Assembly (NCBI RefSeq): GCF_030823405.1
Contig: NZ_JAUSXC010000001.1
Location: forward strand, 3,579,001-3,643,000
Direction: 5' to 3'
DNA length: 64,000 nucleotides
From: Chryseobacterium ginsenosidimutans
GTDB lineage: Bacteria; Bacteroidota; Bacteroidia; Flavobacteriales; Weeksellaceae
The translations under genes were made by a program, and so were the position numbers. A model generated the notes under the pieces. The model worked only from the letters and a program-made list of their open reading frames with translations. It searched no databases and was not told the DNA's origin. Numbering within the stretch: position 1 is the stretch's first letter; each line of letters starts with the position of its first letter. This document shows positions 51,720 to 61,007 of this stretch, in pieces.

Positions 51720-52715
51720 ATGAAAGTAGAAGACTATAACCCGAAGAATTACCTGCCACAAGGATATTATCCCTGGCCGGATAAAATCAATGCTAATGTT
51801 GAACAAATGGGTATTGATTACAGAAACTGGATTGATACCGATTATGTATATCTATCAGAAAATATACGTGAAAGGTATAAGAGCATGAACCTGCACAGCT
51901 GTTCAGCAAGAATGTATCCTTATGCAAGCTATGAACGCGTAACGCCTATGAGTCGTTATGTTATTTTCCATACCATATTTGATGATCAGCTTGAATATTC
52001 TACCAAAGAAGAGGTCAGCAGGTATTGTGACCGACTTGTAGCAATATTCAGGGGAGATGACCTTACTCCGGAAGATCCCGGCTATTTCATCCAGGCCGCC
52101 AAAATCAGAGATGAATTTCGTGCTTTCATGCCGGATGAATGGATGGAACGCCTGGCCGAAATGTTTTATACTGTTACAAGATATGGCGCACAGGAAGAAG
52201 CAAATTATAAATCTACTCAAACCGTTCCTTCACTTGCATTGTTTAAAGTACTCCGGGAATATTCAATTGTTATATTTCCCTACTTCTATCTGGTAGATGC
52301 AGAATTTAATATCTTTTTAACAGATGAAGTAGAGCGCCATCCTGTCATACAACGTGTTCGGTCTCTATGGTCCAGAATTATTGCCTGGCAGAATGATATC
52401 CAGGGATTGAAAAAAGAACTAAGCAAGGATACCGAAGTTATGAACATCGTTATCGTCTTACAGAGAAACTATAACCTTTCACTGGAAGATGCCTTGACTC
52501 AAGCCATGAAAATTCATGATGATGATCTTGCAGAGCTTGTTGCCTTGCAAGAAGACCTTCCCGATTTTGGCAAATATCAGGAAGAGGTAAAACAGTTATT
52601 CCTTGGCTGGGGCAGCCTAATACAAGGTCTAAATACTTTTTACCAGGTAGATACAAATCGTTATGATCCCGAGTGCTTTGCATGGCCAGATAAAGAACCT
52701 GAAGCATTATTTTAA
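51720..52715 (+). CDS. Class I terpene synthase, copy 2
   Basis: 331 residues. FDDQLE (Asp88, Asp89) is the metal motif. NDIQGLKKE (Asn225 to Glu233) is the NSE triad with Gly at the usual Ser/Thr place, also found in some active bacterial cyclases. It is close to copy 3 along its length, starting MKVEDYNPKNYLPQGYYPWP. Its last codons (EALF, stop) are created by DNA identical to the signal-peptide region of the downstream T9SS gene. Product could be a sesqui- or diterpene; Chryseobacterium diterpene synthases of this family are known. Confidence 0.9.
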   Translation: MKVEDYNPKNYLPQGYYPWPDKINANVEQMGIDYRNWIDTDYVYLSENIRERYKSMNLHSCSARMYPYASYERVTPMSRYVIFHTIFDDQLEYSTKEEVSRYCDRLVAIFRGDDLTPEDPGYFIQAAKIRDEFRAFMPDEWMERLAEMFYTVTRYGAQEEANYKSTQTVPSLALFKVLREYSIVIFPYFYLVDAEFNIFLTDEVERHPVIQRVRSLWSRIIAWQNDIQGLKKELSKDTEVMNIVIVLQRNYNLSLEDALTQAMKIHDDDLAELVALQEDLPDFGKYQEEVKQLFLGWGSLIQGLNTFYQVDTNRYDPECFAWPDKEPEALF

Positions 52716-53096: not shown

Positions 53097-54122
53097 ATGA
53101 AAGTAGAAGACTTTAATCCGCAAGATTATCTACCCCAAGGTTATTATCCCTGGCCTGATTTGATCAATCCAAATATCGCGCAAATGGAGATTGACATGAA
53201 GAATTGGATTGATCATGATTATGCCTACTTACCGGAAAAGGCAAGAAGTAAATATAAAAAAATGGGGTTTCATTTATGCACTGCCAGAATGGTCCCAAAA
53301 GCAAGTTATGAGCAAACAATACCTTGTAATAGGTTTGTTCTCAATTTCGTTGTGATGGACGATCAGATGGAGTTTGCAACAATTGAAGAAAAAAAACGAG
53401 ATTGTGACCGGGCAATAGAAATACTAAAGGGCTCAACTCCTTCTGCTAATGAGAATGGTATATTTCAGCATTTAGCACTTATAAGAGATGAGTACAAAGC
53501 CTTTATGCCATCCGAATGGCTGGAACGCTTTACGGTAAATCTTTCCCGCTGTTTCAAATATGGTGTACAGGAAGAAACTCCATTTAAGCTTGCCAAGCGC
53601 ATTCCTTCGTTGGAATACTTTATGATATTGCGCGAATATTCCGTAAACATGTATCCATATTTATACTGGGCAGATATTGAAACAAATTTTGTTTTGCCTA
53701 AATATATCGAAGAGCATCCTGTAATACAACGTCTGCGAGCACTTACATCAAGAATCGAAGCATGGCAGAATGATTTTTACTCCTTACGGAAAGAGCTAGG
53801 CCTTGACACAGAATTAATGAACCTGATCCTTGTTTTACAAAAAGGTCAAAATATATCTTTAGAAGAGGCTGTCATGGAGGCAAAACGGATTCATGATGAA
53901 GATGTCGCCGAATTCGTAGCGCTCCATGAAAATCTACCGAATTTTGGCAATCATCAGCAACAGGTATATGACTATGTTACAAGTCTTGGCACAATATTAC
54001 AAGGACTTAATACTCATTACATAAAAGATACGGAACGCTATCTTGATGGTGGTGAGGGCTTTGCGTGGCCAGAGGGAGAACAAGTTAATAAGTATAAAAC
54101 TCAGGATTTCAAACCAGGGTAA
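53097..54122 (+). CDS. Class I terpene synthase, copy 3
   Basis: 341 residues. MDDQME (Asp88, Asp89) is the metal motif, and NDFYSLRKE (Asn225, Ser229, Glu233) is a full NSE triad. A C-terminal RY is in TERYLDG. Close paralogue of copy 2; preceded by a fossil of copy 1's end. After its stop, at 54158-54202, a relic of another synthase end (HYKPKRFAWPDIEP) remains. With all motifs canonical, this copy is the best candidate for an active cyclase. Confidence 0.9.
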   Translation: MKVEDFNPQDYLPQGYYPWPDLINPNIAQMEIDMKNWIDHDYAYLPEKARSKYKKMGFHLCTARMVPKASYEQTIPCNRFVLNFVVMDDQMEFATIEEKKRDCDRAIEILKGSTPSANENGIFQHLALIRDEYKAFMPSEWLERFTVNLSRCFKYGVQEETPFKLAKRIPSLEYFMILREYSVNMYPYLYWADIETNFVLPKYIEEHPVIQRLRALTSRIEAWQNDFYSLRKELGLDTELMNLILVLQKGQNISLEEAVMEAKRIHDEDVAEFVALHENLPNFGNHQQQVYDYVTSLGTILQGLNTHYIKDTERYLDGGEGFAWPEGEQVNKYKTQDFKPG

Positions 54123-54157
54123 CATTTAACAAATGGCACTATACATCTGTAACGAAG

Positions 54158-54202
54158 CACTATAAACCCAAGCGCTTCGCATGGCCAGATATAGAACCAT
54201 AA
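54158..54202 (+). pseudogene. 3' relic of a terpene synthase
   Basis: The frame HYKPKRFAWPDIEP and stop matches the C-terminus of copy 2 (CFAWPDKEP) and copy 3 (FAWPEGE), sharing GCATGGCCAGATA. It is the tail of a deleted or recombined copy. Confidence 0.65.
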
Positions 54203-54252
54203 AAAGAATCAATTTAGCATAATTTAATAGTAAGAATAGTAGATTTATATAT

Positions 54253-55557
54253 ATGAAAAAAATAAGCATTATTTTAACTTGCTTAATGTTAAGCAGTTCA
54301 GCATTAAAAGCACAGACACAATTCACGGGACTTTCAGGTATGGGCTCGAGATTATACGACATTAACAGCAATGGTAATGCCGTTCACTCTGGCGGATATT
54401 ATAGCTACAACACCAATACAAGCTCGCCTTTAGAGCCTGTAGCAAGTGCAACCAACCGTCTTAATAATACCGGAAATGTAGCTGGAAGCATGCCTTTTGT
54501 AGCAGCTGACGGCTCAAACCTGGATCAGGCTGCCTACCGAAAAAATGGAAACTGGAATGCCATTGGTTATTTTCCGGGCGATGTACCCGGAAACAGCTGG
54601 TTTGGAGATGCAAAAGGAATCTCTGAAAGCAGTACATATGTTACCGGACAAATGAGTTCATCCAACGCAGTAAGCAGTTATCCCTTTTTATATAATACAG
54701 AAACGGGTGCACTTACAAAGCTTACCGGAGATTTAATGTATACAAACGGCCGTGGAGCTGCTGTTAACAACAGCGGAGTTGTAGCCGGATGGATAGACCG
54801 GGAAGATATTTTTGGAATGGGAACTTTCAGGGTTCCAGCCTATTTCGATGCAAGTGGAATCCTTCACTATATAGATTTTGGTACTCCTGAATATGGTGAG
54901 GCGAATGATGTAAATAATGCAGGGTTGATTGTAGGAAATAAAGGCAGTAAAGCATTCATTTATAATATCAATACAAGTACCTATCAATCTTTTGATGCCC
55001 CTGCAGGATATATGGATGCCGTATTTGTATCTGTATCTGAAAATGGGGTTGCCGTTGGATATTGCGGAATGATCGGAGATAGAGAGGTAATTATTTATCA
55101 TCCTTCACTTGGAGCTGCTCCTATTCTGCTTACTGACCTTTTAGCATCTCAGGGTATTACCGTAAATACATTTGACGGGAAACTCGGAACTGGAATGGGA
55201 ATATCTTCGGATGGCAAATATATCTGCGGTTTTGATAATACGGTCCCTCCTATCTTTGCTTCAGGTTGGGTGGCGAAATTAGATGAAACGATACTTGCTG
55301 CCAATGATGTAGAAACAATATCCCAAAACATTCGAATCTATCCTAATCCTGTAAAAGATTTCCTTACTATTTCCAGTAAAAAAAGGATAAAATCTGTATC
55401 TGTATATTCAGCTGACGGAAGATTAATTATTAATAATATGACCATTAATAATCAAGAGGCTAAAATCGATTTATCTGGATTAGAAACCGGAAATTACTTC
55501 GCGACAGCAACTTTAGATGACGGAAGTATTAAATCCTTTAAAGTCATAAAAAAATAA
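54253..55557 (+). CDS. Secreted protein with type IX secretion sorting domain
   Basis: 434 residues. Signal peptide MKKISIILTCLMLSSSALKA, a repeated beta domain of about 330 residues (units with GNVAGSMPFVAADGS- and GVVAGWIDREDI-like segments, as in HAF-type repeats), and a C-terminal T9SS type A sorting domain from about residue 360 (NIRIYPNPVKDFLTISSKKR, then SVYSADGRLI and LETGNYFATATLDDGSIKSF). It should be exported through the type IX system and bound to the surface or released. Function unknown; adjacency to terpene synthases is probably fortuitous. Confidence 0.85.
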   Translation: MKKISIILTCLMLSSSALKAQTQFTGLSGMGSRLYDINSNGNAVHSGGYYSYNTNTSSPLEPVASATNRLNNTGNVAGSMPFVAADGSNLDQAAYRKNGNWNAIGYFPGDVPGNSWFGDAKGISESSTYVTGQMSSSNAVSSYPFLYNTETGALTKLTGDLMYTNGRGAAVNNSGVVAGWIDREDIFGMGTFRVPAYFDASGILHYIDFGTPEYGEANDVNNAGLIVGNKGSKAFIYNINTSTYQSFDAPAGYMDAVFVSVSENGVAVGYCGMIGDREVIIYHPSLGAAPILLTDLLASQGITVNTFDGKLGTGMGISSDGKYICGFDNTVPPIFASGWVAKLDETILAANDVETISQNIRIYPNPVKDFLTISSKKRIKSVSVYSADGRLIINNMTINNQEAKIDLSGLETGNYFATATLDDGSIKSFKVIKK

Positions 55558-55576
55558 AATCACTTTTTTATTTCTT

Positions 55577-55620
55577 AAACTGTTTACAGACATTAAAACC
55601 CTGTAAACAGTTTTTTTTTA
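55577..55620. terminator. Strong bidirectional terminator
   Basis: AAACTGTTTACAG (55577-55589) pairs perfectly with CTGTAAACAGTTT (55601-55613), followed by a T-run on the plus strand and preceded by A-rich DNA for the minus strand. It separates the T9SS gene from the convergent LCIB-like gene. Confidence 0.92.
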
Positions 55621-55631
55621 AGTCTTATTAA

Positions 55632-56366
55632 CTATTTGTGATATTCATCCATCAGGCTTTTCCTTTCTTTGGTTTCAAGGTTGATGTATTCAAACTTTTT
55701 ATACTGGCAGAATGATCCCATATCTTTGTCTCCATTAATAAAAATACCACCTACAAGAATGACGTATTTGCAAGGATATTCGGTTTCCTTCACAAGCACT
55801 TCGATGCGTTCATCTATAGCTTCGTACATAACCTCAGTCGCTTCAAAAATTTGATTCTCTGCATTCAGTATTCTTTCTTTACTGTGAAGAAAAATTTGTT
55901 CGATGGTGTTCATCTGAAAATCCAGTGATGTTATATTTCCTTCGATAATCTGCCCTGCTGCCAGTTTTCCAAGCGCTCCTTTTGCAGCACCGCAACATGC
56001 TGAATTACTGCTCTGCCCTATTCTGCTTATTTCTCCTATTTGGCCTTCTTTAGTAATTCCAATATGAGGAGCATAAAAAATGATCACCGCACCATCTTCA
56101 GGAACATGATGTGCAAAAGCACCCATCCCTGTAAGTCCGGCAAAAGGAAACCCATCAAGCCCTCCCAAGTGAAACGGACCAAGCATCTCATAGGCTCTTG
56201 GCGGATATTGTATGGCATTAACATCGTCACAACACATACTGTCCGCGTGCATTAACTGATTAGGTTTTAATTCCAAATGCTTTTCAATTGTGTCTAATAA
56301 ACGATTCACCGTATCGATCGACGTTAAGGCCTTCGGATACCATTTTCTTACAGATTCTATACTCAT
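55632..56366 (-). CDS. LCIB-like theta-class carbonic anhydrase homologue
   Basis: 244 residues. LCIB/LCIC proteins work in the algal CO2-concentrating mechanism, and some are theta carbonic anhydrases that interconvert CO2 and bicarbonate. The zinc ligands expected for the family are visible: Cys45/Cys46 with Asp47/Asp48 (SMCCDDVNA), His86/His87 (GAFAHHVPEDG) and Cys124/Cys125 (SNSACCGAAKG). The signature GFPFAGLTGMGAFAHH is intact. Last gene of a run with a bestrophin and a K+-channel-like gene. By analogy with algal bestrophin-LCIB pairs it may process bicarbonate moved by the channel. Family call by motif only. Confidence 0.78.
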   Translation of the reverse strand: MSIESVRKWYPKALTSIDTVNRLLDTIEKHLELKPNQLMHADSMCCDDVNAIQYPPRAYEMLGPFHLGGLDGFPFAGLTGMGAFAHHVPEDGAVIIFYAPHIGITKEGQIGEISRIGQSSNSACCGAAKGALGKLAAGQIIEGNITSLDFQMNTIEQIFLHSKERILNAENQIFEATEVMYEAIDERIEVLVKETEYPCKYVILVGGIFINGDKDMGSFCQYKKFEYINLETKERKSLMDEYHK

Positions 56367-56381
56367 AATTTTTTTATTTTT

Positions 56382-57398
56382 TTACATGACAATATTATTA
56401 ACAGGCTGTATGGCAGGTGGAAGTTCTTTTTCACCAAGCATTTCACGCAGATCAATTTCTATATTCCTGCTGATTTGGGTGATAGGGATATCATTGGCAT
56501 TGCCTTCAAACGGATTTTCCGTACTCTCACCTATCAATTCCAAAACCAGAAATACCCAGCCTAAAAGCACACTGAACGGAACGGTAAGCCAGATTATATT
56601 GTCTCCAAATTTCTCTGTCATTTTAGAAAACTCTCCTAAAAATCCTAAAGGAAGCAAAAAGCACAAAGCATTTGTGAAATAGAGATTAATGCTTGAAAAC
56701 TGCCTTGGATAAGGGAAATTTTTGATCCTTTCACATTTTCCCTGCTGATCATACAATTCTTTGAACTGATTTTCAAGCGCAGTATAATTGTAATCTGAAA
56801 TTTTACCCTCTTCATTTAATTTTCTCAACTGGGCAGACTGTAAAGCAATAATTTGTGTTGCCCTATTTTTAGTAGAAAGCACATACTGAAGCTCATTATC
56901 GCTTAAAAACAGCTTGAGTTCATCTTCAACTTTGGTTTCCCATTCAGGAACATTATAGTATTGCAGATATTCTTTATTGTAACTTTTTGTTTTTATATGT
57001 TCCCAGCTTTTTGTTTCTCTAAGCTGAAATCTTAATACAGTAAGCCACGCAAAATGACGATAAATGATTTGCTGATGTAAAGCAGATTCTTTTACTTTAT
57101 CATCCGTTCTTATAAAATCTTTTACCAAAATGCCAAAACTACGGCTGTTATTAATGATCGCACCATAGATCTGGCGTGCTTCCCAGCTTCGGTTATAAGT
57201 TTGGGTATTTTTGAACCCCGAAATAAATGCCGTAGCTGTTCCAAGCAATGCCACAGGAACCCACGGAATTGCAAGCCACTTCCAGCCTAGAAAATAAAAA
57301 AGCATTGTGGGAACAATACTTAAAATAAGCATTTTGTAAATTTTCGTTCTGGTCCACGGAATGAAATGATAGAGCTTATAATGTGAGCCGGTATTCAT
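56382..57398 (-). CDS. Bestrophin-family anion channel
   Basis: 338 residues, usual for bacterial bestrophins, with about four membrane helices (the first FYFLGWKWLAIPWVPVALLG-like). The bestrophin signature FKNTQTYNRSWEARQIYG (residues 62-79) is clear, as is the C-terminal NPFEGNANDIPITQISRNIE with the acidic gate region. Bestrophins pass chloride or bicarbonate. It starts 6 bases after the K+-channel stop and ends 15 bases before the LCIB-like ATG. In algae bestrophin-like channels feed bicarbonate to LCIB, which makes the neighbourhood suggestive. Confidence 0.92.
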   Translation of the reverse strand: MNTGSHYKLYHFIPWTRTKIYKMLILSIVPTMLFYFLGWKWLAIPWVPVALLGTATAFISGFKNTQTYNRSWEARQIYGAIINNSRSFGILVKDFIRTDDKVKESALHQQIIYRHFAWLTVLRFQLRETKSWEHIKTKSYNKEYLQYYNVPEWETKVEDELKLFLSDNELQYVLSTKNRATQIIALQSAQLRKLNEEGKISDYNYTALENQFKELYDQQGKCERIKNFPYPRQFSSINLYFTNALCFLLPLGFLGEFSKMTEKFGDNIIWLTVPFSVLLGWVFLVLELIGESTENPFEGNANDIPITQISRNIEIDLREMLGEKELPPAIQPVNNIVM

Positions 57399-57404
57399 AA
57401 TAAT

Positions 57405-58064
57405 TTAATTTTTTGATGAAAATTTGCTGATCAGGATACCGACCAATACAACAGTATAAAACTGGCCTGCAATCCCAATAAAAGCAGTGATTAATTTTGT
57501 AACATGCGTGTTGGGGGTAATGTCTCCAAAACCAATACTTGTAAAAGTAATAGAACAGAAGTAGACCAAATCCATAAATGTAAGAGCTGGAGATGATATA
57601 TCAACTCCTTTAAAAGACGCCGGATCACGATACTGGAAAAACTGCAGTGAAAAAACCGAAATTTCTATCAGTAACATATAACCACATATAGATGCAGAAA
57701 TAATATCTGTATTGATATATCCCGGTTTTATGAGAAACCGGAGTACTTCTACAAGAATAAAACAGAAAAATATTACATAATTGATATTCAAAAATGTAAA
57801 ATACCATGGAAGGTCGTTAAAAAAAGGAATTCCAATAGGTAATAATAAAATGACAATAAAATGCAGATTCCTGAACCAATGCCTCCAGCTGTGCTTCTCC
57901 GTAATTAAAAAGATAGATCCCAGCCCTAATATCAGCATATTGAGCGGCCATATAAAACGGGTATAAAAATCCATATCTGTAAGAAATATTCCTACAAATA
58001 AATGTTGCATCAGAGCTAATAAGAGGATCTCGTACTTTCTTTCCTGTAACTTTTTAATGGTCAT
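57405..58064 (-). CDS. Two-pore-helix potassium-channel-like membrane protein
   Basis: 219 residues with about six hydrophobic segments. The last pair frames a K+-channel pore loop with selectivity filter TSIGFGD (residues 175-181, a TxGFGD variant) and the following helix ITAFIGIAGQFYTVVLVGIL. No RCK/TrkA domain is seen. It is first in a run of three genes (channel, bestrophin, LCIB-like); a K+ path could balance charge when anions move through the bestrophin. Promoter not identified. Confidence 0.87.
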   Translation of the reverse strand: MTIKKLQERKYEILLLALMQHLFVGIFLTDMDFYTRFIWPLNMLILGLGSIFLITEKHSWRHWFRNLHFIVILLLPIGIPFFNDLPWYFTFLNINYVIFFCFILVEVLRFLIKPGYINTDIISASICGYMLLIEISVFSLQFFQYRDPASFKGVDISSPALTFMDLVYFCSITFTSIGFGDITPNTHVTKLITAFIGIAGQFYTVVLVGILISKFSSKN

Positions 58065-58080
58065 TTATGTTTTAAATAAA

Positions 58081-58245
58081 ATTGAAAAACTAACAGTGAT
58101 CTGTTTTTAAAGCCTGACAAAATACGTCCTGATTTTCAACAAGCATTTTTTCCAGCCTGTTTAGCTGATCAATGTGCCACTCATAAGTTTTGGTCATCTG
58201 TAAATTCTTTTGTACTATCAAAATTAACTGATAGGGATTTATATT
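58081..58245 (-). pseudogene. Aldehyde-dehydrogenase N-terminal remnant
   Basis: About 50 codons read NPYQLILIVQKNLQMTKTYE, then WHIDQLNRLEKMLVENQDVF and a stop. The Q-L-x-x-L-x-x-ML-x-EN pattern is that of the first helix pair of aldehyde dehydrogenases. Nothing of the catalytic domain follows. A short expressed peptide cannot be excluded but is unlikely. Confidence 0.45.
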
Positions 58246-58259
58246 TTTACAGTTTAGGG

Positions 58260-58697
58260 TTAATTGGCCTGTCCGATATCAAGACGTGAAATTTTTCCGT
58301 CTGCATCGAAATGAAATTTAAAATAGGTTCTAAAATCACCCCAGCTTTCTGTATGAAAATTTCCATAAATATCCTTTCCGTCATTTTCTACTTTATCGAC
58401 GGTTGTAAAACGCTCATGTCCGCAAGCATCCTTTACAAATTTTTTAAAGTCCCTCGGATTTCCATCATCATATAATTTTGCATCTGCTATGAAGTAAGAC
58501 AAAAAAGTTTGACCGTCTCCTTTTTGCCATGCTTCAAAAACTTCTTTTACGATATTATTTGTTAATTTACTCGTATCCATATTATTATCTTTTTGTTGTG
58601 TTTTTTTAGTTTTATTATTTGAGGAAGAATTCTGCTGTCCGCAGGCTGTAAAGCTGAACAGGCATATTGCAATAGTAAATATTATGCTTTTTTTCAT
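58260..58697 (-). CDS. SnoaL/NTF2-like lipoprotein
   Basis: 145 residues. Lipobox Cys19 (FSFTACGQQ), a Lys/Asn/Gln-rich linker of about 30 residues, then an NTF2-like fold: VKEVFEAWQKGDGQTFLSYF, DDGNPRDFKKFVKDACGHER and YFKFHFDADGKISRLDIG. Probably periplasmic or outer-membrane anchored. It follows the DoxX gene by two bases, so they are one unit. Function unknown. Confidence 0.78.
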   Translation of the reverse strand: MKKSIIFTIAICLFSFTACGQQNSSSNNKTKKTQQKDNNMDTSKLTNNIVKEVFEAWQKGDGQTFLSYFIADAKLYDDGNPRDFKKFVKDACGHERFTTVDKVENDGKDIYGNFHTESWGDFRTYFKFHFDADGKISRLDIGQAN

Positions 58698-58699
58698 TG

Positions 58700-59050
58700 T
58701 TATACATTCTTTAATGGATATTGCAGGTAAATAATAGCCAAATTCAGTAATAAAAATGGAAGCTCAATAAGAACTCCTTTCAGATCTTTATCCAGAAGAT
58801 GCAGACAAATGATGAGTAATATTCCTGCTGCCATCAGAAAGTTTCCCCAGACAAAAGTTTTAGGGAATAAGATCAGTAATGCTGCAATGATCGTAATGGC
58901 ACCATTTATCGCTAATGCTGTTTTGCTAAATCCCCATTTGCCAAACATTTCCATCATTTCAGATTTTCCTGCTAACATGGCATACCCTTGTTTGATACCC
59001 ATAAATACAGCTAAAACGATCAATGCTCCATTGAAAATTTTTAGAATCAT
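58700..59050 (-). CDS. DoxX-family membrane protein
   Basis: 116 residues with four hydrophobic helices, the size and layout of small DoxX proteins (first helix IFNGALIVLAVFMGIKQGYA, then GKWGFSKTALAINGAITIIA). Family members occur in thiosulfate oxidation or redox stress complexes, but most are uncharacterised. Operon with the SnoaL-like lipoprotein that follows it. Confidence 0.82.
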   Translation of the reverse strand: MILKIFNGALIVLAVFMGIKQGYAMLAGKSEMMEMFGKWGFSKTALAINGAITIIAALLILFPKTFVWGNFLMAAGILLIICLHLLDKDLKGVLIELPFLLLNLAIIYLQYPLKNV

Positions 59051-59124
59051 AATTTCTTTCTTAGTGGTAACTGATTAATATGAAACATAATCCATTTTGT
59101 TGAATTCAGCTAATAAATCCATAA

Positions 59125-59880
59125 TTATTTAGAAAGGGCTTCGATAACCATCTGTGATGCCAAATAACTGCTGTGCTGCTGTTGTGCAGTAATCAGCCTG
59201 CCATCTCTAATTGCGAAAGGCTCTAAGGGACCCGCAACTTCAAAAGTAGTTTGATTATTTTTCCGAGCTTCAGTTTCAATCGTATATTCGTTTACCTTTT
59301 TCCCGAACATCTGGTTAATCATTTCTTCCTCACTATCAGCAAAACCGGTCCAAGTTTTACCATCCGCTAATAGTTTACCGTCACTCAATTTTGTCCATAA
59401 CAGCAAAGATGTTCCGTGGCAAATTAAACAGGTAATCTTTCCTGCTTCGTAAAAATCTGCAATTAATTGGTGTAGCTTTACGTCATCTTTAAAGGTAATC
59501 AATGGAGCTCCTCCTCCCGCTACACAAACTGCATCGTAATCGGCAACATTTATATTGGAAATAGGGATCGTATTTTCCATCCATTTACCAAACGTTGTAT
59601 GGTGGACAAAACCAATACTTATCAAATCATTGGGATAAGCTCCATGAGGGTTTTCCGGGTTGCTGTGTGCATCAAAGATTACTGCACCACCATTAGGAGA
59701 TGCCACATCTACATCATATCCTGCGTTGATAAAGTCGAAGAAAGGCCTTGTCATTTCTTCGGCAAAAAAGCCCACCTGCATACCTTCTAGTAGTGCAGCA
59801 TTAGAGACTAAACATAATACTTTCTTCTTTGGGAAATTATGCTGTCCCCTTCTTTTTATAACATTGTTCTGATTGCTCAT
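59125..59880 (-). CDS. DJ-1/PfpI-family protein
   Basis: 251 residues. The DJ-1 fold is seen in KVLCLVSNAALLEGMQVGFF and the conserved nucleophile elbow LICHGTSLL with Cys154-His155. A Glu (FAEEMTRPFFDF) may be the third residue. An extended PNGG loop follows. Family members are chaperones, glyoxalases or amidase-like; none can be chosen by sequence alone. It lies before the DoxX gene on the same strand. Confidence 0.87.
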   Translation of the reverse strand: MSNQNNVIKRRGQHNFPKKKVLCLVSNAALLEGMQVGFFAEEMTRPFFDFINAGYDVDVASPNGGAVIFDAHSNPENPHGAYPNDLISIGFVHHTTFGKWMENTIPISNINVADYDAVCVAGGGAPLITFKDDVKLHQLIADFYEAGKITCLICHGTSLLLWTKLSDGKLLADGKTWTGFADSEEEMINQMFGKKVNEYTIETEARKNNQTTFEVAGPLEPFAIRDGRLITAQQQHSSYLASQMVIEALSK

Positions 59881-60467
59881 AATTTTGAATTCATTGGAAT
59901 AAGTACAATTTTAGAAACTTTCTTAGGCGACTCAAAGTAATCTAAGTTATGAATTCGGAAATTTTAACTTAAGAATAATCAACAATACTCGATTTATCAA
60001 TAAAATTTTCAGTAAGAAAAACTACTTTTTTGTATTTTTTTTGATTATTAAATTTAGCAATTGTACTGTAATTCAATATATTATATTTTTTTTATTCTGT
60101 GGAAATAACAATCCTGATCATTTTCAAAAAATTAAAGAATGATTACAAAAAATTTATCACTTTTTCAAAAAAATTGTTCTAGAAAGTAAAGCCAATCATC
60201 TCAATTTATTTAAAATTGTATAATATTCTGAAACTTTTGTATGGTTTGTTTTCTTCAAATATACAAGCAGTATCGTTATTAGTGTTCTCGCTGAAATTAC
60301 AAAAATTACCTTTTTTAATTGAAATCACAGTTCTATTTTCGGAAAAACACACATCTATTTCTTTTCGTTGGACGATTATATTTATAATATTGGATCAAAC
60401 TACATTTTATGCAGTATAAATAATTGACCTTAATATATAAACATACATTCCCAAATTAAGCTAAGCC
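59881..60467. other. AT-rich region without a gene
   Basis: About 590 bases. A 67-codon frame at 60216-60419 has no family resemblance and looks accidental. A CTCAATTT-ATTT-AAAATTG arrangement at 60201-60219 faintly resembles the palindrome motif at 16 kb. Confidence 0.4.
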
Positions 60468-61007
60468 ATGAGAAGAGAACGCTTTGATGCCATTACAGAT
60501 GCAATTCTGGCAATTATTATCACTTTGATGGTGCTCGAAATTAAAATACCTGAACTTACACTGAATAATGTATCAAATATTTTAATTCAGATCTTTATTT
60601 ATGGAATAAGCTTTATTACAATCGCAATTATCTGGTTAAATCATCATAATATTTTTGCCAAGATAGAAAAAGTAGATATTAATTCGGTCTGGATAAATTT
60701 TGGACTGCTTTTTATGATTTCATTTATACCGAGTGCCACAGAACATTTAAACGTATCATTTTTTAATGTGGCAAATCATATATTTTATGGCATTGTAACT
60801 GGTTGTGTCGTTTTCTTTTATGCCTTGCTACAACAGCGCGTAACAAGTTCTGAAAAAAGCAAAACATTTATATTATCCAGAAGGATGAGTTGGTGGGTTA
60901 TGGTACTGTACTTTTTAAGCATTCCGCTGAGTTTTATCAGTGTATATATTTCCGGATGTATCTTTTTATTCATCCCGATTCTTTATTTTATACAGACAAA
61001 AAGATGA
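60468..61007 (+). CDS. TMEM175-family (DUF1211) ion channel-like protein
   Basis: 179 residues with about five to six membrane helices. The N-terminal motif MRRERFDAITDAILAIIITL corresponds to the RxxxFxDAxxAIxxTLL gate helix of TMEM175, with Phe-Asp for the usual Phe-Ser. Bacterial TMEM175 proteins are potassium-selective leak channels that work as tetramers. Single gene with no partner nearby. Confidence 0.85.
   Translation: MRRERFDAITDAILAIIITLMVLEIKIPELTLNNVSNILIQIFIYGISFITIAIIWLNHHNIFAKIEKVDINSVWINFGLLFMISFIPSATEHLNVSFFNVANHIFYGIVTGCVVFFYALLQQRVTSSEKSKTFILSRRMSWWVMVLYFLSIPLSFISVYISGCIFLFIPILYFIQTKR

Follow-up and report, generated by a model that had tools for sequence, protein, structure and literature searches.

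A conserved bacterial bestrophin–LCIB gene pair with an exchangeable cation partner

In a 64,000-nucleotide stretch of the Chryseobacterium ginsenosidimutans genome (assembly GCF_030823405.1, contig NZ_JAUSXC010000001.1, positions 3,579,001 to 3,643,000; hereafter the window), three complete minus-strand open reading frames (ORFs) fill positions 55632-58064 and encode a K+ channel, a bestrophin, and a carbonic anhydrase-like protein of the LCIB family. The genes are 6 bp (K+ channel-bestrophin) and 15 bp (bestrophin-LCIB) apart, exactly the span and spacing given in the original prediction, which had read them as a bicarbonate/CO2 module with K+ as counter-ion. We confirm that bestrophin and LCIB form a real, conserved bacterial unit with an exchangeable cation partner. 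This is seen in the families of the proteins, their intact active-site residues, the conserved adjacency of the two genes, the co-divergence of LCIB with bestrophin, the exchange of the cation protein, and an anion-type middle residue in the bestrophin neck. The families themselves are known, and among the papers listed in our searches on LCIB, bestrophin, and bacteria, no title or opening of an abstract describes a bacterial operon combining the two. With about even confidence, we propose that these two proteins are the core of a unit for exporting bicarbonate, joined by a cation partner and probably serving pH or ion homeostasis under stress.

By similarity to the window LCIB, we collected 49 LCIB loci and scored a locus as linked when the same strand carried a bestrophin no more than 1.0 kb away. 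Linkage was found in 43 of the 49, with bestrophin upstream of LCIB in 42 and downstream in L054, and in 15 of the 18 above-cut-off LCIB loci of the host's own family, a set that shares species with the first. The gap between the two genes was usually short (median 17 bp; ≤100 bp in 53 of 59 locus entries, some species being counted twice). A small ORF separated them in L033, L046, and L048 (gaps of 669-1003 bp), and the bestrophin reading was broken in L052. The unlinked similarity-found loci were L039, L057, L058, L067, L068, and L064, the last on a contig that starts inside LCIB. Linkage was kept from 54% to 97% LCIB identity and across two phyla, and this recurrence excludes chance adjacency. 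An adjacency peculiar to this strain, which had been named in advance as evidence against the module, was therefore not what we found. At L018:1462-2802, a locus of the family sample, most of a bestrophin and the first part of an LCIB appear to have been deleted, and a K+ channel lies beside the shortened remnant.

The survey carried the adjacency far beyond the strain but restricted it to one LCIB clade rather than bacterial LCIB generally. When 78 different LCIBs were placed in a tree, the 45 with a linked bestrophin all fell within one group of 52, on a branch whose support of 87 is short of the starred level. The pair thus has a long history in a single clade, and no case of it turned up elsewhere. 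LCIB itself was sparse, occurring in 19 of 246 own-family genomes (18 above cut-off) and in 35 of 395 genomes of a phylum draw; 12 of the 19 belong to the own genus, which has at least 99 genomes in the sample. The linked group includes three Acidobacteriota loci, all with linkage. We rejected that phylum as a second home of the unit because it turned up in only one of 199 genomes there, the seed itself, and this rarity makes the three loci look acquired. Between the window and a Sphingobacterium locus (L065), protein identity was 93% for LCIB, 89% for bestrophin, and 87% for the K+ channel; the block stays within 87-93% whether compared with Sphingobacterium or with a record labelled Chitinophaga polysaccharea. 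The LCIBs of both nest among those of Chryseobacterium, and genomes assigned to the host's genus carry LCIBs identical to ones in named Chryseobacterium records. The high identity and the nesting suggest that the block may have spread by horizontal transfer. No plasmid match to 55600-59900 was found at megablast sensitivity.

To identify the core, we compared how the genes diverged across loci L020-L068 (L043 dropped) plus the window. LCIB and bestrophin distances were tightly correlated (Spearman 0.85, 43 loci), and none of 1000 Mantel shuffles reached as high a value. The correlation with LCIB was lower for the K+ channel (0.55, 26 loci), SDR (0.44, 22), antiporter (0.40, 10), aldehyde dehydrogenase (ALDH; 0.28, 12), DoxX (0.24, 30), and SnoaL (0.10, 25). 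Because these values compare different locus sets, we repeated the analysis on matched loci, and the ranking held. Each gene trailed bestrophin on the same loci: 0.55 vs. 0.82 for the K+ channel, 0.42 vs. 0.78 for SDR, 0.40 vs. 0.66 for the antiporter, 0.28 vs. 0.76 for ALDH, 0.26 vs. 0.71 for DoxX, and 0.08 vs. 0.73 for SnoaL. K+ channel distances followed those of bestrophin at 0.67. The matched contrast indicates a core of bestrophin and LCIB with the K+ channel as a looser partner, whereas the stress-type genes behave as recombining neighbors.

The identity of the cation partner was not fixed. We read up to 6 kb of flank at 42 bestrophin-linked loci. A K+ channel was present in 25 of them and an antiporter in 10, the latter belonging to Na_H_Exchanger (PF00999, one representative scanned); none carried both. 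This mutual exclusion was strong (Fisher 1.3e-5, kinship not corrected). On a tree of 45 different LCIBs, the two cation genes switched at least four times, with two switches forced by well-supported branches. Therefore, K+ as the counter-ion proved too narrow a claim. The K+ channel is missing from 17 of the 42 loci, and we rejected it as a constant component.

All three proteins matched their families well above the curated or profile cut-offs, at 233 bits vs. 25 for LCIB (PF18599), 151.7 vs. 27 for bestrophin (PF25539), and 48.6 vs. 22.5 for the K+ channel (PF07885), and the E-values (Table 1) exclude chance family membership. A family-fold test likewise placed the 244-residue window protein in LCIB. 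Residues C45, D47, H87, H101, R115, and C125 were invariant in 50 of 50 aligned LCIB homologues and align with identical letters in PtLCIB4. Neither of the other two outcomes named in advance as refuting the prediction, a missing LCIB match or unaligned zinc ligands, was therefore observed. By homology with beta-carbonic anhydrases, we take the likely zinc ligands to be C45, H101, and C125, accompanied by a D47-R115 pair. The C-C-D-D, H-H, and C-C-G motifs were present, but the two histidines are not both conserved: H87 is invariant, whereas the residue at H86 differs between proteins, being Lys in 6kfs and Gly in PtLCIB4. C46 stands at the position of PtLCIB4 S47. The window LCIB thus shares family and aligned active site with PtLCIB4 and the LCIB_C_CA family (theta- or beta-like carbonic anhydrases; PDB 5b5y, 6kfs), though at 27% identity. 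No signal peptide was seen by inspection, and the protein is predicted to have carbonic anhydrase activity.

The bestrophin carries the FKN/NRSWEAR stretch noted at the outset, and the Klebsiella bestrophin KpBest (PDB 4wd7), also bacterial and alignable, matched it at E 2.4e-24 in two stretches covering most of its length. Their necks differ. KpBest is a Na+-selective channel with neck residues I62, I66, and F70, in which I66F is reported to shift selectivity towards Cl− (PMC8496536). The window protein instead has T54, F58, and F62 (T-F-F) in an ungapped part of the alignment. T-F-F was shared by all the LCIB-linked bestrophins in the alignment, which make up 62 of its 65 rows; the remaining three are KpBest and two own-genome paralogues. 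Because F58 stands where I66F favors Cl−, anion passage through the window bestrophin is likely.

Bestrophins also occur without LCIB. One own-genome paralogue, again with T-F-F, sits beside a Na_H_Exchanger-type antiporter (L073). The same arrangement appeared in L148 and in all eight loci read from a longer list (L157-L164), making this LCIB-free combination a recurrent pair in the host's genus. Such neighbors associate this family of channels with balancing cations and pH, and not with supplying carbon. In the family sample, 16 genomes had a bestrophin orthologue at ≥79% identity, with LCIB adjacent in 15 of these; in G218, such an orthologue accompanied an antiporter and no LCIB. The broken copy in G150 was left out of this reading.

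The K+ channel has the predicted TSIGFGD filter and matches the pore profile. Filter residues T173, G178, and G180 were invariant in 27 of 27 aligned sequences. A structure model gave six long helices and a pore helix, and because the protein ends just past the last helix, it has no C-terminal regulatory domain; no added sensor domain was found in it.

These features could be joined in an export circuit. We infer bicarbonate permeation, its direction of flux, a contact between LCIB and bestrophin, and a physiological trigger. Cytoplasmic LCIB would hydrate metabolic CO2 to HCO3− and H+. The bacterial membrane potential is inside-negative, so an open anion channel would export HCO3−, and the anion-type bestrophin would let it leave down this potential. 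The cation partner would balance charge, as a K+ channel here and as a Na_H_Exchanger-family cation/H+ antiporter in other lineages. With the K+ channel, the net reaction would be CO2 + H2O + K+(in) → H+(in) + K+(out) + HCO3−(out), lowering cytoplasmic pH without an energized exchanger. Its use would probably be pH or ion homeostasis under stress, whether an alkaline load or electrophile stress as in Kef, and not carbon supply.

The cooperation of LCIB with bestrophins in algae, on which the original prediction drew, is in print. Chlamydomonas LCIB/LCIC are reported to interact with the bestrophin-like BST1 and BST3, and in the published model LCIB/C turns leaked CO2 into HCO3−, which bestrophins carry from the stroma into the thylakoid (PMC6708349). 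LCIB/LCIC and the thylakoid proteins BST1-3 belong to the same two families as the operon proteins, with HCO3− made on the stromal side and carried off, but they work in an organelle and serve Rubisco, whereas the bacterial operon comes with a K+ channel or cation/H+ antiporter. As the stroma is topologically equivalent to the bacterial cytoplasm, the algal model likewise has HCO3− moving away from what would be the cytoplasmic side. DAB2 and MpsAB similarly join CO2 hydration or HCO3− handling to a membrane protein, but the protein families differ. DAB2 is reported to take up CO2 by vectorial hydration driven by the proton-motive force (PMC13144422). DabA and DabB families were not among the operon proteins, the part of the genome searched for them.

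Several observations weigh against the export reading. Seven of the 42 loci had neither cation gene in the flank read (L032, L037, L054, L059, L060, L062, and L063). Linkage was found in only 3 of 30 LCIB loci read in an even phylum draw (35 found; flanks of ~1.5 kb), and with 27 of 30 lacking a bestrophin, we rejected the idea that bacterial LCIBs generally have one beside them. All six bestrophin orthologues at ~70% identity (L151-L156) lacked both LCIB and antiporter within the stretch read. The neck rule derives from one bacterial channel, and Thr at the first position falls outside the residues described in the available text (PMC8496536). The stress-type genes diverge independently of the core and so say little about its use. 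Moreover, three purified LCIB homologues with beta-carbonic anhydrase-like structures are reported in a review to lack carbonic anhydrase activity (PMC5876011).

On this last point, other genomes suggest that bacterial LCIB may act as a carbonic anhydrase. In a Bacteroidota family of 57 genomes (f24), LCIB occurred in 34 and a high-scoring beta-carbonic anhydrase in 11, together in none, but the 180-bit split behind this exclusion was chosen after the two-peaked score list had been seen, and kinship was not corrected. Twenty-one of the 34 LCIB genomes had no beta-carbonic anhydrase at all. Counting any beta-carbonic anhydrase, the difference was not significant (13 of 34 vs. 14 of 23, P 0.11), a further point against. 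Stand-alone LCIB may be the housekeeping carbonic anhydrase in this family. In the bestrophin-unlinked locus L068 (4286-6681), a SulP transporter lies directly before an LCIB with 35% identity to that of the window. Its genome (G665) was the only one of 15 LCIB-carrying genomes checked, out of the 49, without a beta-carbonic anhydrase match, an apparent replacement by LCIB. It is this SulP neighbor, together with the f24 exclusion from high-scoring beta-carbonic anhydrases, that points indirectly to catalysis.

Could the unit instead supply inorganic carbon, with bestrophin admitting HCO3−, or LCIB trapping CO2 as HCO3−, for carboxylases in air? The algal proteins do serve CO2 concentration (PMC6708349), and some heterotrophs need such systems, such as MpsAB in Staphylococcus aureus (PMC6689103). 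However, the host's own 4.30-Mb, single-contig genome already has two beta-carbonic anhydrases flanking a SulP transporter (G000:C1:292581-295871; L069, L070), likely a housekeeping bicarbonate cluster, and 14 of the 15 other LCIB-carrying genomes checked have a beta-carbonic anhydrase as well. The bestrophin-linked LCIB therefore looks like an extra enzyme with its own job. We presume from the genus that the host is heterotrophic. LCIB is also present in just 12 of the at least 99 own-genus genomes sampled, the genes it is partnered with encode K+ channels or cation/H+ antiporters, and a passive anion channel would export HCO3−. We consider carbon supply unlikely. The bicarbonate handling of the original prediction is kept, but its acquisition sense is improbable given the SulP cluster and a membrane potential that favors exit. 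In a different direction, the K+ channel and bestrophin might be an osmotic or K+ release valve that dumps KHCO3, with LCIB merely keeping HCO3− supplied. The K+ channel does adjoin bestrophin, as does a 40%-identical homologue in L110, but its absence from so many loci and its lack of an added sensor domain leave us quite doubtful of a valve. That the genes are neighbors only through shared transfer, with no functional link, would fit the high identity between the window and Sphingobacterium. Still, the adjacency outlasts deep LCIB divergence in two phyla and on matched loci no other gene tracks LCIB as closely as bestrophin does, so we find this very improbable.

The remaining alternative sharpens the export reading. 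In several relatives, a regulator, SDR, DoxX, SnoaL, and ALDH lie upstream of the K+ channel-bestrophin-LCIB genes on the same strand, a stress-type set absent from the earlier description of the unit. Three loci (L022, L027, and L065) have the order SDR-DoxX-SnoaL-ALDH-KCH-BEST-LCIB on one strand, KCH and BEST being the K+ channel and bestrophin. The whole run, with DJ-1 counted in, might detoxify carbonyls and acidify the cytoplasm as a CO2-driven counterpart of Kef, in which K+ efflux is coupled to H+ entry and acidification protects Escherichia coli from electrophiles (PMC10224563). K+ channel homologues are also found between SDR and DoxX without bestrophin (59% identity, L108) and between DJ-1 and OsmC (36%, L109). 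By contrast, the divergence of DoxX, SnoaL, and ALDH does not follow that of LCIB, and the Acidobacteriota loci lack most of the gene set. ALDH, moreover, lies close to LCIB in just 12 of 48 loci, and the window retains only a remnant of it. The proposed net effect of the operon resembles that of Kef, with K+ leaving and the cytoplasm acidified, but Kef, which exchanges K+ for H+, includes both an oxidoreductase subunit (PMC10224563) and a KTN domain (PMC2920069), and the operon has neither. No Kef-type exchanger, KTN domain, or oxidoreductase was found among the nine window proteins scanned against profiles (53097-61007), the part of the genome searched. A use like that of Kef has its appeal, although the neighbors that suggest it are loosely linked. 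The antiporter swap would suit homeostasis at alkaline pH just as well, and we regard electrophile-stress acidification as possible but unlikely. More speculative, and a shade less probable in our estimation, is a horizontally spread, CO2-driven acid-loading device in which an LCIB-bestrophin complex would export each new HCO3−, K+ efflux or cation/H+ exchange would close the circuit, and the whole would stand in for Kef under carbonyl or alkaline stress; the algal partnership would then be a later use of a bacterial coupling.

The minus-strand run continues upstream of the operon (Table 1). Across 33 residues, the 35-codon remnant shares 88% identity with positions 19-51 in a 457-residue PF00171 protein (L022:2861-4234; E 2.9e-18). 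The gene is whole (457-458 residues) at the same place in L022, L027, L047, and L065, and by this comparison the window copy is a partial deletion. SnoaL and DoxX genes were close to LCIB in 24 and 29 of 48 related loci. At L152:913-2505, a SnoaL-like gene with 61% identity to the closest relative in the set comes directly before a 70%-identical bestrophin without LCIB. The possibility that the window's SnoaL-like protein is an iota-type carbonic anhydrase was rejected, as it lacks the HHHSS motif and its SnoaL_2 match is weak. DoxX as a marker of a quinone-stress regulon was also set aside, since the papers listed on it gave no direct support.

Table 1. Minus-strand genes of the operon and its upstream neighbors in the window
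Feature	Position	Strand	Description
LCIB/theta-type carbonic anhydrase	55632..56366	-	244 aa; PF18599 LCIB_C_CA, E 3.1e-69
Bestrophin	56382..57398	-	338 aa; PF25539 Bestrophin_2, E 3.9e-44
K+ channel	57405..58064	-	219 aa; PF07885 Ion_trans_2, E 7.6e-13
Aldehyde dehydrogenase remnant	58090..58197	-	35 codons; between SnoaL gene and K+ channel; apparent partial deletion
SnoaL-like protein, lipoprotein-type start	58260..58697	-	145 aa; PF12680, E 0.0025, below cut-off; loosely linked
DoxX_2 membrane protein	58700..59050	-	116 aa; PF13564, E 1.5e-8; loosely linked
DJ-1/PfpI family protein	59125..59880	-	251 aa; PF01965, E 1.3e-12; first gene of the minus-strand run; family also beside the K+ channel homologue in L109

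Two further observations concern plus-strand genes. A TMEM175-type K+ channel gene (60468-61007; PF06736, E 2.6e-25) is divergent from the operon, and relatives with 28-30% identity are found within the operon at two other loci, placed between the DoxX and K+ channel genes in L021 and between those for K+ channel and bestrophin in L046. On the other side are tandem, similar terpene-synthase-like genes at 51720-52715 and 53097-54122; the latter matched PF19086 (E 8.6e-29), and the former was recognized only by shared matches in L004 and L024.

Whether LCIB works as a carbonic anhydrase and what draws algal LCIB to bestrophins are questions hard to test in chloroplasts. The bacterial operon offers a small, tractable system in which to study the physical coupling of LCIB to a bestrophin, the direction of HCO3− movement, and LCIB catalysis. 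If the export reading is true, the unit would represent a new bacterial way to load acid via CO2.

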